From an uncultured Clostridia bacterium (GTDB lineage: Bacteria > Bacillota > Clostridia > Lachnospirales > Lachnospiraceae): DNA of 35,545 bases. This document shows, piece by piece, positions 250 to 34,613 of this stretch. The notes below the pieces were generated by a model, which saw nothing but the letters and a program-made list of their open reading frames with translations, did no database searches and had not been told where the DNA came from. Position numbers and translations under genes: made by a program. The stretch is from contig CAMIVF010000005.1 in assembly GCA_946401715.1 (NCBI GenBank), positions 1 through 35,545 on the forward strand, in the 5' to 3' direction. The stretch's first letter is position 1; every line of letters starts with the position of its first letter.

Positions 250-744
250 CTACAGCTCAATCTCAATCTTCCGCCCCGTTCTCTGATACCTGACGCAGCG
301 TACGCCCGCGGCATGAAGCAGCCTTGCGGAAGCGATGTTGTTCGGCGCGTTCCGGTACTTGTCGTCCTCGTAGATGACCGTCTTGATCCCGGACTGGATC
401 ACTGCCTTGGCGCATTCATTGCACGGAAACAGCGTCACATACAGCCTTGCGCCCTCCAGGCCCGGGCCGCGGTAATTCAGGATGGCGTTGAGTTCGCTGT
501 GAACGGTGTAGGGATATTTCGTCTTGAGTTCATCTCCGTCGTCCGCGCTTCTTGCCCATGGAAACTCATCGTCAGAGCATCCATTCGGAAGCCCGTTGTA
601 ACCCATGGACAGGATCTTGTTGTCCGTGCTGACGATGCAGGCGCCCACCTGCGTGTTCGGGTCCTTTGACCGGAGCGCGGCCAGGTGCGCGACTCCCATA
701 AAATACTCATCCCAGGATATATAGTCTTTTCTCTTATCGCTCAT
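250..744 (-). CDS. dCMP deaminase (ComEB-like cytidine/deoxycytidylate deaminase family)
   Basis: HSELNAILN and PCNECAKAVIQSG zinc motifs; NTQVGACIVSTDNKILSMGYNGLPNGC is typical of the family. Confidence 0.93.
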   Translation of the reverse strand: MSDKRKDYISWDEYFMGVAHLAALRSKDPNTQVGACIVSTDNKILSMGYNGLPNGCSDDEFPWARSADDGDELKTKYPYTVHSELNAILNYRGPGLEGARLYVTLFPCNECAKAVIQSGIKTVIYEDDKYRNAPNNIASARLLHAAGVRCVRYQRTGRKIEIEL

Positions 745-846: not shown

Positions 847-1476
847 TTATTTCGTTCCGAAGATCCGGTCGCCGGCATCGCCCAGTCCCGGGACAATATA
901 GCCGTGATCGTTCAGGTGATCGTCCAGCCCGGCGATGTAGATGTCAACGTCGGGATGATCTTCCTGCAGACGCTTTACGCCCTCCGGGGCGGCAAGGATG
1001 TTCATCACGCGGATATGTCTGCAGCCGTGCTCCTTGAGCATGGTAATCGCAGCAGAAGCACTTCCTCCTGTCGCAAGCATGGGATCCACGACGAAGACTT
1101 CTCTTTCGCCGCAGTCCTCCGGGAGCTTGCAGTAATACTCGACCGGCTTCAGCGTTTCGGGATCACGGTAGAGTCCGATATGGCCGACCTTCGCTGCAGG
1201 GATCATGGTGAGAACTCCGTCTACCATGCCGAGTCCCGCGCGGAGGATCGGGATGACCGCGAGCTTGCGTCCGGACAGTTCCTTGACGGTTGCCCTGGCG
1301 ATCGGCGTTTCGATCTCGACATCCGTCAGCTTCAGATCCCGCGTTGCTTCGTAGCACATCAGTCCCGCGATTTCCGAGACAATGGTCCGGAAGTCCTTTG
1401 TACCGACGTCTTTTCTTCGAATGACGCCGAGCTTGTGCTGGATCAGCGGGTGATCAAGAATCATTACTTTTGACAT
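847..1476 (-). CDS. upp: Uracil phosphoribosyltransferase
   Basis: 209 aa; PRPP-binding [30 protein letters not shown]-terminal [29 protein letters not shown]. Confidence 0.97.
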
Positions 1477-1563: not shown

Positions 1564-2043
1564 TCACTGCAGCGGTTCCTGCTGCAGCCGGCTTTCCTCG
1601 AGACTCAGGATCTTTGAGAGCCTGAGCACATAGACCCGGAGCATTTCGTACACACGGTTGTAGTCCGCCAGGCTTCCGCCGTAAGGATCAGAGATGTCTT
1701 CGTCTGCCTGAATGTAAGAGGCAAGGGTGAAAACATTCTTGGCGTGTTCGTGATCCTTCAGGAGCCGGCTCATCAACGCTTCGTCCATCGTCAGGATCAG
1801 GGTGCGGTCGTCGAAGTCATCCTCGGTGAGCTGCTCGCTGACATGATCCTTCATGGACAGGGAATGACTGACCAGGACCGCCTCTGCCTTCGGATTGATC
1901 GGTTCGGGAAACAGCACTACAAGCCCCTTCGACGTGATCAGGATGTCCTCCAGAAGAAAGATCTGCTGGAGAATCGCCTCAGCCATCGGGCTTGTCGAGG
2001 TGTCACTCTCACTGACAAAGATCAGTTTATCATAGTGTTTCAT
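1564..2043 (-). CDS. Low-molecular-weight protein phosphatase (YwlE-like) homologue with a substituted catalytic loop
   Basis: Fold-level similarity (IFVxxxxTSxSPMAEAIL, LTMDEALMSRL, ISDPYGGSLADYNRVYE). The CX5R loop reads VSESDTSTSP instead of VCTGNTCRSP. Lies next to Sua5 and upp, as in the ywlC-ywlE-upp region of Bacillus. Confidence 0.8.
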   Translation of the reverse strand: MKHYDKLIFVSESDTSTSPMAEAILQQIFLLEDILITSKGLVVLFPEPINPKAEAVLVSHSLSMKDHVSEQLTEDDFDDRTLILTMDEALMSRLLKDHEHAKNVFTLASYIQADEDISDPYGGSLADYNRVYEMLRVYVLRLSKILSLEESRLQQEPLQ

Positions 2044-2053
2044 GGCAGGTTTC

Positions 2054-3109
2054 CTATACTGAGAGAATGTGATGTCCCGCAGCCTTGATCAGCCGGTTCA
2101 TGATCGCGGCCCCAATCTGCGGCGTATCAAATGACTCTGAGTAAATGACATCGACCCCGAGGCTGTCGAATTCACGGAGAATGCCGAACAGATGCTGCGA
2201 GATCGTGATTTCCTTTGCCCGGCTGCCGGCTGAGCGCACGATTCCATAGTGATAACTGCCGGCATCCTCGTCCGCGGCAATGATGCCGCACCTGAGGCCT
2301 TTCATAACAGCTTCGCGCGAAAGCTTCTCGATGGCGGCGCGTACATGGTCCCCGCGTCCTTCAACGATGGTCAGAGCTGCCTTCGGGGCATAATGCCGGT
2401 ACTTCATGCCCGGCGCCTTCGGCCGGAAGGAAGGATCCTCGCTGTGAAGCCCCGGATCCATGCAGACGTCTCCGATCACATCCCGGAGCATCTCCAGACT
2501 GATGAAACCCGGGCGAAGGACCATGGGGGTGTCCGCTGTCAGATCGATAATCGTAGATTCAACGCCAATGCCGACGCTGCCCCCGTCGATGATCATATCG
2601 ATCTTTCCGTTCAGATCATCATACACATGCTGTGCCGTCGTCGGACTGGGCCGGCCTGAAGTGTTGGCGCTCGGGGCGGCAATGTATCCGCCTGACGCGC
2701 GGATCAGCGCCAGCGCAATCTCATGATCAGGCATACGGACTGCGACCGTGTCAAGGCCTCCCGTGACGGAGGATGGGACGAGAGGGCTTTTTTCCATAAT
2801 GATGGTGAGTGGTCCGGGCCAGAATGCCTGACTCAGGATATATGCCTGTTCCGGGATATGCGTTACGATCAGCTCCAGACTGTCCGGACTGGCGATATGG
2901 ACAATCAAAGGGTTGTCACTGGGACGGCCCTTGGCGCTGTAGATCCGCCTGGCCGCGTCCGGATCAAGGGCATCTGCCCCCAGTCCGTATACGGTCTCTG
3001 TCGGAAATGCAACCAGATGGCCGCTTCTGATGATGCTGCCTGCTGTTTCCATGAGAGCTTCGTCGACGCCGTCTCTCATGTCAGCCCATATTGTCTCCAT
3101 GTCTGTCAC
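2054..3109 (-). CDS. L-threonylcarbamoyladenylate synthase (Sua5/YciO/YrdC family)
   Basis: FPTETVYGLGADA, IYSAKGRPSDNPLIVHI, AAPSANTSGRPSPT; C-terminal Sua5 domain (PGMKYRHYAPKA). 351 aa. Confidence 0.95.
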   Translation of the reverse strand: MTDMETIWADMRDGVDEALMETAGSIIRSGHLVAFPTETVYGLGADALDPDAARRIYSAKGRPSDNPLIVHIASPDSLELIVTHIPEQAYILSQAFWPGPLTIIMEKSPLVPSSVTGGLDTVAVRMPDHEIALALIRASGGYIAAPSANTSGRPSPTTAQHVYDDLNGKIDMIIDGGSVGIGVESTIIDLTADTPMVLRPGFISLEMLRDVIGDVCMDPGLHSEDPSFRPKAPGMKYRHYAPKAALTIVEGRGDHVRAAIEKLSREAVMKGLRCGIIAADEDAGSYHYGIVRSAGSRAKEITISQHLFGILREFDSLGVDVIYSESFDTPQIGAAIMNRLIKAAGHHILSV

Positions 3110-3378: not shown

Positions 3379-4587
3379 ATGGGAGAGGAAATCAAAGCAC
3401 CGGCAACGGAAGCAGTAGAAGCAGCGGCTGAGGCTGTATGCGAGGCGGCTGAAACGGTACAGGCTGCAGAGGAAGCAGCGGCTGAGACCACGCAGGCTGC
3501 AGAGGAAGCAGCGGCTGAGACCGCGCAGGCTGCTAAGGAGGCAGCGGCTGAGACCGCACAGGCTGCAGAAGAGGCAGCGGCTGAGACCGCGCAGGCTGCA
3601 GAAGAAGCAGCGGCTGAGGCAGCACAGTCTGTGGCGGAAGCGGCAAAGGAAGCTGCTGAAGAGAAGCCATCAGAGCCTGCCGAATCCATGGCAGATTTTG
3701 AAGCGGAAATTGATGCTTCCCTGCGCAGATATGAGCGCGGTGAGAAGGTAAAGTGCACGGTTGTGAGTGTCGACATGGACAAGGTCATGGTTGAGCTCGG
3801 CTCGACAGCCGGTATTATCCGCAAGCAGGACGTGAATGATGATCCGGCCTATAATTTGCAGGAGAACATCAAACCCGGTGATGAGGTAGAAGCTACTGTT
3901 ATCCGTCCGGATGATGGCCACGGGAATGTCGTTCTGTCGATGAAGGCGGCGTCCGCACAGAAAGCATGGGACAGGCTGCTCAGCCTGCTGGAAACGAAGG
4001 CAACGGTTACCGTGAAGATCAACGGCGTGACCAAAGCCGGCGTAACCACGATCCTGGAAGGCGTGCGTGGATTTATTCCTGCTTCCAAGCTGAGCCTTGG
4101 CTTTGTGTCTGATGAAGAACTGAACAACTGGGTCGGCAAGAGTGTTGAGGCCCGTGTCATTACCGCAGAGAAGGAAGGAAGGAAGCTGGTGCTTTCCTCC
4201 AAGGAGATTCTCAGGGAGAAGGAAGCGGCTGAGCGCAAGGAAGCTGCTGCTGCCGTGAAGCCGGGCATGATCACCGAAGGAACGGTTGAGACGATTAAGG
4301 ATTACGGCGCATTTGTCAATCTGGGCAAGGGCGTTACGGGACTGCTCCATGTATCGCAGATCAGCCCGAAGCGGATCAAGACACCCGGAGAAGTTCTGAA
4401 AGAGGGCGACACGGTCAAGGTGAAGGTCACGAAGGTGGATGGCAGCAGGATCAGCCTGAGCATCAAGGCGTTGGACGAGTCTGCTCCGGAAGAGCCGAAG
4501 GAAGAGAAGATCAACTTCAAGCTGCCCAAGAGCGAAGCGATCGGAACCGGCCTCGGCGATCTGCTGAAGGGCCTGAAGCTGAAATAA
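3379..4587 (+). CDS. S1 RNA-binding domain protein (about three S1 domains) with an Ala/Glu-rich hendecad repeat N-terminus
   Basis: S1-type segments GEKVKCTVVSVDMDKVMVELG, ATVTVKINGVTKAGVTTILEGVRGFIPAS and GMITEGTVETIKDYGAFVNLGKGVTGLLHVSQI. Confidence 0.9.
   Translation: MGEEIKAPATEAVEAAAEAVCEAAETVQAAEEAAAETTQAAEEAAAETAQAAKEAAAETAQAAEEAAAETAQAAEEAAAEAAQSVAEAAKEAAEEKPSEPAESMADFEAEIDASLRRYERGEKVKCTVVSVDMDKVMVELGSTAGIIRKQDVNDDPAYNLQENIKPGDEVEATVIRPDDGHGNVVLSMKAASAQKAWDRLLSLLETKATVTVKINGVTKAGVTTILEGVRGFIPASKLSLGFVSDEELNNWVGKSVEARVITAEKEGRKLVLSSKEILREKEAAERKEAAAAVKPGMITEGTVETIKDYGAFVNLGKGVTGLLHVSQISPKRIKTPGEVLKEGDTVKVKVTKVDGSRISLSIKALDESAPEEPKEEKINFKLPKSEAIGTGLGDLLKGLKLK
3457..3624 (+). repeat. 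In-frame 33-nt tandem repeat, about 5 units (11-aa AQAAEEAAAET)
   Basis: caggctgc recurs at 3460, 3493, 3526, 3559 and 3592, an exact 33-nt period. Confidence 0.9.
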
Positions 4588-5535: not shown

Positions 5536-5731
5536 AGTGATATTGCTGTCCTTTCAGATAGATTTCATAAAAAAGTATAGAATTCCCAGAAGATTGCGTC
5601 AAGAAAGAGATCGCTTGACATGTAATGACTTCGAGAGTAGAATTAAAACAAATGTAATAATTCTGTAATCTCGATGTCCCAGTTCGAAATAAAACCGGGC
5701 AATCCCGATAACATTTATGGGAGGTTTGTTA

Positions 5732-7180
5732 ATGAAAAAGCGTTTAGCCGGAATTATCCTGCTTGCAGTTATGGTGATGCTGGTCTGTGCAGGACATACC
5801 TGGGCGGGTTTTGTCAAGGTGAACGGCAATACCATGTACAAGACAGAATCCGGGAGTTTTCTGAAGGGACTGCAGAAGATTGACGGTGAATACTACTACT
5901 TTGACACTTCCGGCATCCTGAAGAAAAAGGGCTGGATCAAGACACCGGAAGGGAAGGAGTACTATGCCACAAAGACGGGTGCTCTTCTGAGAAACCAGTG
6001 GTATAAGAACAGGAGAAAGTATTATCTGACCGAGACCGGGGAAAAGGCGAAGGGGATCACCAGGATCGGCAACGCGCTGTTTTATTTTTCTCCGACAAAA
6101 GGAAAGCTTCAGAAAGGAAAGCTGAAGGATCCGGACGGCAATTTTTATATTACGAATAACAAGGGCGTCGTATACCGGGGCAAGCTGTTTACGTATAAGG
6201 GCAAGCGGTATTACGCGCATGAGGATGGCAGGCTGGCAAAGGGCCTGACGAAGATCGGGAATCACATTTATTTCTTCCGTCCGAAGAACGGTAAGATGTT
6301 GCTTTCGTCGCTGAGAACAGTTGACGGCGCAAAGTATTACTTCAGAAAGCGTGGAAGAGCTGCCCGCAGCCAGTGGGTAAAGATTAAGAATCAGTACTAT
6401 TATTTCCAGGAAGACGGCCGCATGGCGACGAATCAGATCGTCGGGAAGTGGTACGTCGATGAGGACGGCGTGCGTAAGCCGGCTTCCGAGGCGCCCGGCA
6501 GCGGGATCCGCAAGAAGAACGGAAAGTACTACGTCTACGACGAGGACGGAAATCTAGTCAAGGATGCCTGGGCGAACGACGGGGAAGACACCTATTACGC
6601 CGGAAGCGACGGCGCTGCCCTGACCGGTTTTCAGACAATCAATAAAAAGCAGTACTATTTCGATGAAGAGGGTGTCCTGCAGAAGGATACGATCGTCAAG
6701 GTCGGCACGAAGTATTATGTCGCCGCCTCGGACGGACACATTACGGGGACCACGAAGAAGTCCGGCGCAGCGCTTGTGGCCTATGCGAAGAAGTTCCTCG
6801 GCCTTCCCTATGTGTGGGGCGGAACCAGCCTGAAGAAGGGCGCGGACTGCTCGGGATTCTGCTTCGCTGTCCATCAGAAGTTCGGTATTACGCTGATGAG
6901 AGTTGCGGACGATCAGATGAAGGGACCGTCCAAGGCATATCAGAAGCTTGGCTATAAGAAGGGCGTCCGGATTAAGGATAAGAACCTGCAGCCGGGAGAC
7001 CTGGTTTTCTATGATTCGAGCAAAGACGGTGTGATGGATCACGTTGCGATGTATATCGGAAAGAAGAAGGGAAAAGGACAGGTGATCCACGAGGCCGGCA
7101 AGAAATATGGTTGTGTCATTACGGATATAGACTGGGCGCATGGCCGTGTGTCGAACAAGAATATGCGTTACTGGGCATAA
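5732..7180 (+). CDS. Secreted wall-repeat protein with C-terminal NlpC/P60 peptidase domain
   Basis: Signal peptide MKKRLAGIILLAVMVMLVCAGHTWAG; many glucan/choline-binding-like repeats (YYYFDTSGILKKKGW, YYFQEDGRMATNQ); C-terminal VWGGTSLKKGADCSGFCFAV...PGDLVFYD...DHVAMYIG. Start moved from 5717 to the ATG at 5732, which follows gggagg. Confidence 0.92.
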   Translation: MKKRLAGIILLAVMVMLVCAGHTWAGFVKVNGNTMYKTESGSFLKGLQKIDGEYYYFDTSGILKKKGWIKTPEGKEYYATKTGALLRNQWYKNRRKYYLTETGEKAKGITRIGNALFYFSPTKGKLQKGKLKDPDGNFYITNNKGVVYRGKLFTYKGKRYYAHEDGRLAKGLTKIGNHIYFFRPKNGKMLLSSLRTVDGAKYYFRKRGRAARSQWVKIKNQYYYFQEDGRMATNQIVGKWYVDEDGVRKPASEAPGSGIRKKNGKYYVYDEDGNLVKDAWANDGEDTYYAGSDGAALTGFQTINKKQYYFDEEGVLQKDTIVKVGTKYYVAASDGHITGTTKKSGAALVAYAKKFLGLPYVWGGTSLKKGADCSGFCFAVHQKFGITLMRVADDQMKGPSKAYQKLGYKKGVRIKDKNLQPGDLVFYDSSKDGVMDHVAMYIGKKKGKGQVIHEAGKKYGCVITDIDWAHGRVSNKNMRYWA

Positions 7181-34471: not shown

Positions 34472-34514
34472 GAACGAAGGCAGGCAAAGCCTTTCCAGAG
34501 AAGCAAAGCAGCAG

Positions 34515-34613
34515 GCCTTGCAGGAAAACAGAGCGGCAGCAGGCCTGGCAGGAGAAACAGAGCATCAGCCCTGGCAGGAAAAACAGAGCATCATGCCTTG
34601 CAGGAGAAATGCG
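34515..34613 (+). repeat. Degenerate tandem repeat of about 26 nt between the thioesterase gene and the S1 gene
   Basis: cctkgcaggaraaacagagc-like units start at 34515, 34544, 34570 and 34596. Confidence 0.7.

Follow-up and report, generated by a model that had tools for sequence, protein, structure and literature searches.

Pseudophosphatases of the PTP family have lost the catalytic Cys or Arg and kept a binding role, and the known cases are mainly of other PTP folds in animals; bacterial ones have hardly been described, and the one analysed here spans a major gut family, the Lachnospiraceae. Its closest described relative is YwlE/PtpB (Bacillus subtilis, Geobacillus stearothermophilus, Staphylococcus aureus), an LMW-PTP. 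The P-loop Cys and Arg play a central part in catalysis and in binding phosphate, and a Thr at position PX5 sets the preference of YwlE for phosphoarginine (pArg; PMC8001253). The McsB/YwlE pair controls the stability of TsaD, a t6A enzyme, in B. subtilis (PMC7546277), which gives YwlE an independent link to t6A. In the literature that our search covered, with subscription journals mostly outside it, we found no report that links YwlE with Sua5 or McsB with the Lachnospiraceae, and no description of a bacterial LMW-PTP pseudophosphatase.

The gene in question lies in the 35,545 nucleotides of Lachnospiraceae DNA that were analysed (hereafter the window; Table 1). Its ORF is intact and starts with ATG, 10 nt after the sua5 stop codon. 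The P-loop reads F-V-S-E-S-D-T-S-T-S-P-M (codons GTC AGT GAG AGT GAC ACC TCG ACA AGC CCG, from the Val), so that S-E-S-D-T-S-T takes the place of the C-x5-R motif. The position of the ORF, these residues and codons, the replacement of the catalytic Cys by Ser, the second Cys by Ser and the Arg by Thr, and the downstream S-D-P-Y-G-G all agree with an initial annotation made from the DNA alone, as does the Sua5 neighbour; to these we add the change of the P-loop Asn to Asp. The general-acid Asp is present (D119), and T15 is the Thr at P-loop position 5 that marks the YwlE subgroup. The fold is kept, as had been proposed: the protein scores 67.8 bits against Pfam LMWPc (cut-off 23.2), and the AF2 model is confident (pLDDT 93.3, pTM 0.89) and finds LMW-PTPs as its top structural matches, with YwlE crystals the best (4pic, TM 0.85-0.88; 4kk3, 0.81-0.85). 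No NCBIfam model that would name the protein exceeds its cut-off. The best sequence-profile matches are YwlE and 4egs, an LMW-PTP from a thermophile, and 4egs alone outscores YwlE. The window protein thus shares with YwlE/PtpB the fold, the profile matches, the PX5 Thr and DPYGG, but differs from it in lacking both Cys residues and the Arg, in the Asn-to-Asp change and in a family-specific VVLFPEP block. That it is a pseudoenzyme is near certain.

Table 1. Features of the locus, with window coordinates, strand and basis of assignment.
Feature	Coordinates	Strand	Basis
LMW-PTP (YwlE-like) pseudophosphatase, Sua5-linked, 159 aa	1564..2043	-	ORF, Pfam, family alignment, AF2 model, structure matches
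Degenerate P-loop S11-E-S-D-T-S-T17; C-T-G-N-T-C-R in intact relatives	1993..2013	-	sequence, family alignment
Conserved block S38-K-G-L-V-V-L-F-P-E-P-I-N-P-K52, family-specific	1888..1932	-	family alignment; order-wide comparison
D119-P-Y-G-G, general-acid Asp position, retained	1675..1689	-	sequence, family alignment
Sua5 / TsaC2, L-threonylcarbamoyladenylate synthase, directly upstream	2054..3109	-	PF01300 + PF03481; TIGR00057 above cut-off
Uracil phosphoribosyltransferase (upp), downstream, same strand	847..1476	-	ORF list, Pfam
dCMP-deaminase-like protein, downstream, same strand	250..744	-	ORF list, Pfam

A scan of public genome contigs returned 80 relatives, nearly all from Lachnospiraceae. 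The close ones have S-x-S-D-T-x-T in common, and all of them lack both the Cys and the Arg. Sequencing error, which had been named as a possible refutation, is rejected because the same loss recurs in independent assemblies (proteins 84-99% identical) with differing synonymous Ser codons, AGT or AGC. Close orthologues with an intact CX5R had been named as another, and this objection does not apply because the close relatives lack both residues; intact orthologues occur only in more distant genera. Since FPEPINPK was among the patterns of the contig scan, its conservation there is partly circular, and we rely on an independent set, a profile search of 200 Lachnospiraceae genomes (almost all one per genus) in which this peptide was not a seed, and from which we read 99 Sua5-linked orthologues, one per genome. 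Of these, 22 retain the Cys as well as the Arg; 53 have lost only the Cys, 12 only the Arg and 12 both, so that the loss, as the initial annotation had asked, is indeed lineage-wide (77 of 99), and the annotation of such genes as phosphatases is likely wrong for most genera. The group that has lost only the Arg (L068, L069, L071, L206, L208 and others) represents a degeneration unlike that of the window protein. Cultured relatives include Robinsoniella peoriensis (L023) and Porcincola intestinalis (L066), the latter without either residue. The P-loop Asn, present in 29 of 34 sequences with the Cys and in 11 of 66 without it (the window counted as an extra row), is lost along with the Cys; therefore the whole phosphate-binding loop has been freed from selection or remade. 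An order-wide search fetched 28 loci, 24 of them outside the Lachnospiraceae, and all 24 adjoin Sua5 and carry an intact CX5R, nearly always as CTGNTCRSP. The intact motif is thus ancestral, and the losses took place inside the Lachnospiraceae.

The order of these losses can be read, with due caution, from a tree that combines Sua5 with the phosphatase (P-loop columns removed; 96 rows), built by a "quick" method and with many weak branches. It divides the family into two halves: one of 46 rows, in which intact and degenerate loops form a mosaic and to which every McsB-positive row of the tree belongs, and one of 50 rows, including the window, in which the Cys is lost in 45 and McsB has no matches. 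Most likely the Cys was lost first and the Arg later, because the neighbours of the window protein grade from V-S-x-S-D-T-C-R-x-P loops, which lack the Cys and keep the Arg, to the Arg-less loops of G213, G203, G006 and the window. Parsimony counts about 15 changes between the intact and degenerate states and about 6 of the fusion state described below, counts in which gains and losses are not separable. Intact, Cys-less, Arg-less, doubly degenerate and fused forms together make a natural series that traces a route from enzyme to binding protein.

In the window's clade, purifying selection constrains the gene about as tightly as sua5: among the closer pairs, dN/dS is 0.015-0.08 for the pseudophosphatase and 0.04-0.10 for sua5, and is the lower of the two in 9 of 11 pairs; only close pairs were counted because dS is near saturation in wider ones. 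The window protein in this way resembles the PTP-family pseudophosphatases, which have likewise kept the fold, lost catalysis and been conserved by selection. Lineage-wide loss, purifying selection and a confident YwlE fold strongly support the initial suggestion of a pseudophosphatase rather than simple decay. The most conserved part of the protein is the near-invariant block SRGxVVLFPEPxNxK (residues 38-52), with F45 and P48 in every row and E47 in 97%; it is conserved far above the P-loop in the profile-found set, a result that held on re-test, and its FPEP form is largely limited to Lachnospiraceae in the order-wide comparison. In the model, the block lies in the loop between strand 2 and the next helix.

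Wherever the contig extends far enough to tell, Sua5 lies directly upstream of the orthologue on the same strand. The gene order is older than the loss, being found in other families of the order as well, and linkage on its own therefore proves nothing about a partnership; it is only the fusions and the constraint that argue for one. Sua5 and the phosphatase form a single open frame in 15 of the 99 genomes, and also in L067 and L070, with lengths of about 500-545 aa where complete; one of the 15 (G019), at a contig end, has only the C-terminal part of Sua5. A complete Sua5 and a YwlE-like domain share one ORF in several lineages (L067, L070, L128, L142, L144, L148, L149, L156, L175, L181, L186, L187, L190, L194, L214 and L216). 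The fusions resemble TsaN (8ide), a natural multi-domain t6A enzyme in which Sua5 is likewise one of several domains of a single chain, but it is accompanied there by TsaD, TsaC and TcdA-type domains, whereas in Lachnospiraceae the partner is a dead phosphatase; the fused orthologues contain a complete Sua5, whereas the solved Sua5 chains that we compared have no LMW-PTP domain. A model of the natural fusion L067, built from 16 fused sequences, reached pLDDT 91.3 and pTM 0.84, and its Sua5 part matches the solved Sua5 structures 6f87 and 9d3h. Because Sua5 accounts for only about 70% of the residues, such a pTM would hardly be reached with a free-floating domain, so the model gives the phosphatase domain a defined position, as supporting rather than decisive evidence given that a short rigid linker could contribute to the score. 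From the fusions we infer a non-catalytic, binding function, and they suggest that Sua5 has gained the dead enzyme as an accessory component.

In arginine phosphorylation, McsB is the writer and YwlE the eraser. Two different models find McsB in the same 43 of 200 Lachnospiraceae genomes. The initial annotation had called for a search of this genome for McsB and a second, active YwlE. McsB gave no matches in the window's own assembly, which is about 73% complete, or in 18 genus mates (two genomes, G000, the window's own, and G006, were searched twice), in a search that also missed its control genomes, B. subtilis among them. B. subtilis carries both CtsR and McsB, and its genome went unmatched by the models of either, so that absences found by this search call for care and are not proof. 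A second LMW-PTP does exist in the genome (L001:1468-1947, minus strand), with an intact CHGNICR loop and Ile at the specificity position; it would be of the phosphotyrosine type by the published rule (PMC8001253).

Where McsB is present, it has often changed. We read 40 Lachnospiraceae McsB loci (L227-L266) and scored six positions in SSRxRLAR, NEEDHLR and RGxYGEG, ATP-guanido kinase positions that we presume, by analogy with phosphagen kinases, to be the relevant ones. All six are kept in 9 loci; a CX5R YwlE accompanies the canonical McsB in 7 of these 9 genomes versus 2 of the other 31 (p = 6e-5, kinship ignored), and in one of the two exceptions, G227, the only change in McsB is Glu to Asp, a kind of change that may leave activity. 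Most of the 31 carry NGDDHIR-type motifs, and many of their genomes have no YwlE orthologue of this type. Most Lachnospiraceae McsB homologues thus depart from the catalytic motifs (NGDDHIR and the like in place of NEEDHLR), and much of the family may lack protein-arginine phosphorylation or have it in changed form. Loss of CX5R is associated with absence of McsB in a raw Fisher test (p = 0.011), with most of the signal in one deep split, and independent-pairs tests on the tree found no significant association between McsB and the eraser; because of the latter we claim no proven coupling, and that writer and eraser tend to change together is offered as a lead.

Repeated, widespread loss within the family, gene fusions to Sua5 and altered McsB kinases all go beyond the initial annotation. 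We favor, with moderate confidence, the reading that a YwlE-type protein-arginine phosphatase turned into a pseudoenzyme inside the Lachnospiraceae and was retained to serve Sua5 as a non-catalytic partner. We posit that loss or alteration of McsB-dependent arginine phosphorylation would have made catalysis dispensable and that the dead protein would have been retained for a binding role. It would dock on Sua5 (TsaC2), with the VVLFPEP block and its surroundings as a candidate interface, and could then stabilize or regulate Sua5, the maker of threonylcarbamoyl-AMP for the t6A modification of tRNA. More tentatively, and with a little less than even confidence, we extend this to a YwlE-derived pseudophosphatase that would serve as a dedicated accessory Sua5/TsaC2 subunit across much of the Lachnospiraceae, regulating t6A, and that would have arisen as arginine phosphorylation was dismantled, YwlE and McsB both being altered at catalytic positions. 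Such a scheme would connect YwlE with t6A synthesis; it also predicts that much of the family lacks arginine phosphorylation or has it in altered form.

The strongest competitor, which we consider unlikely, grants the protein a non-catalytic role but one apart from Sua5, for example as a Clp adaptor or a redox or ribosome factor, with linkage and fusion serving only stoichiometry or co-expression. An ancestral sua5-ywlE linkage and a constrained gene fit this explanation; fusions specifically to Sua5 on several lineages, and a model with a defined placement, speak against it. The initial annotation had raised the possibility of a phosphoarginine or phosphotyrosine reader, whose pocket would bind the phosphorylated residue without hydrolysis. 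The window protein and most genera retain the Thr that confers pArg preference (PMC8001253), and the general-acid Asp is kept; the genera that have lost only the Cys (53 of 99) could still hold phosphate through the Arg, and Cys-to-Ser versions of this kind may be capable of some phosphate chemistry (in 4kk4, a crystal of YwlE C7S, a serine is phosphorylated). The window protein, which lacks the Arg too, falls outside this argument. In its clade a reader is improbable because the loop has lost the Arg and carries a net charge of -2, against +1 in an intact relative; the nearest genera share the acidic, Arg-less loop, the pArg-forming kinase McsB was not found in the search of the 73%-complete genome and its genus mates, and the most conserved block lies elsewhere in the protein. 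That the protein is an enzyme using a newly built active site, for instance one with Asp/Ser chemistry in a rebuilt loop, is still less probable: S-x-S-D-T is conserved within the window's clade and D119 is kept, but across the family this loop varies greatly while the rest is conserved, and we know of no precedent for a new active site with such a loop. That the protein remains an active phosphatase by some unconventional route is scarcely credible despite the intact fold and DPYGG, since the nucleophile and the phosphate-binding Arg, both central to the known mechanism (PMC8001253), are gone. A decaying gene, which the lost catalytic residues alone might suggest, is contradicted by close-pair dN/dS values below 0.1, by ORFs that are intact in about 100 genera and by the Sua5 fusions, and can be dismissed.

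The window has other features of note. A 33-bp tandem repeat (5.3 copies, 3445-3618) encodes an N-terminal tract rich in E, A and Q in a 402-aa protein that, by eye, resembles an S1-domain RNA-binding protein. At 5717-7180 lies the gene for a 487-aa protein with what appear, again by eye, to be cell-wall-binding-like repeats and an NlpC/P60-like C terminus, and an imperfect 26/54-bp tandem repeat falls within an ORF at 34498-34609.
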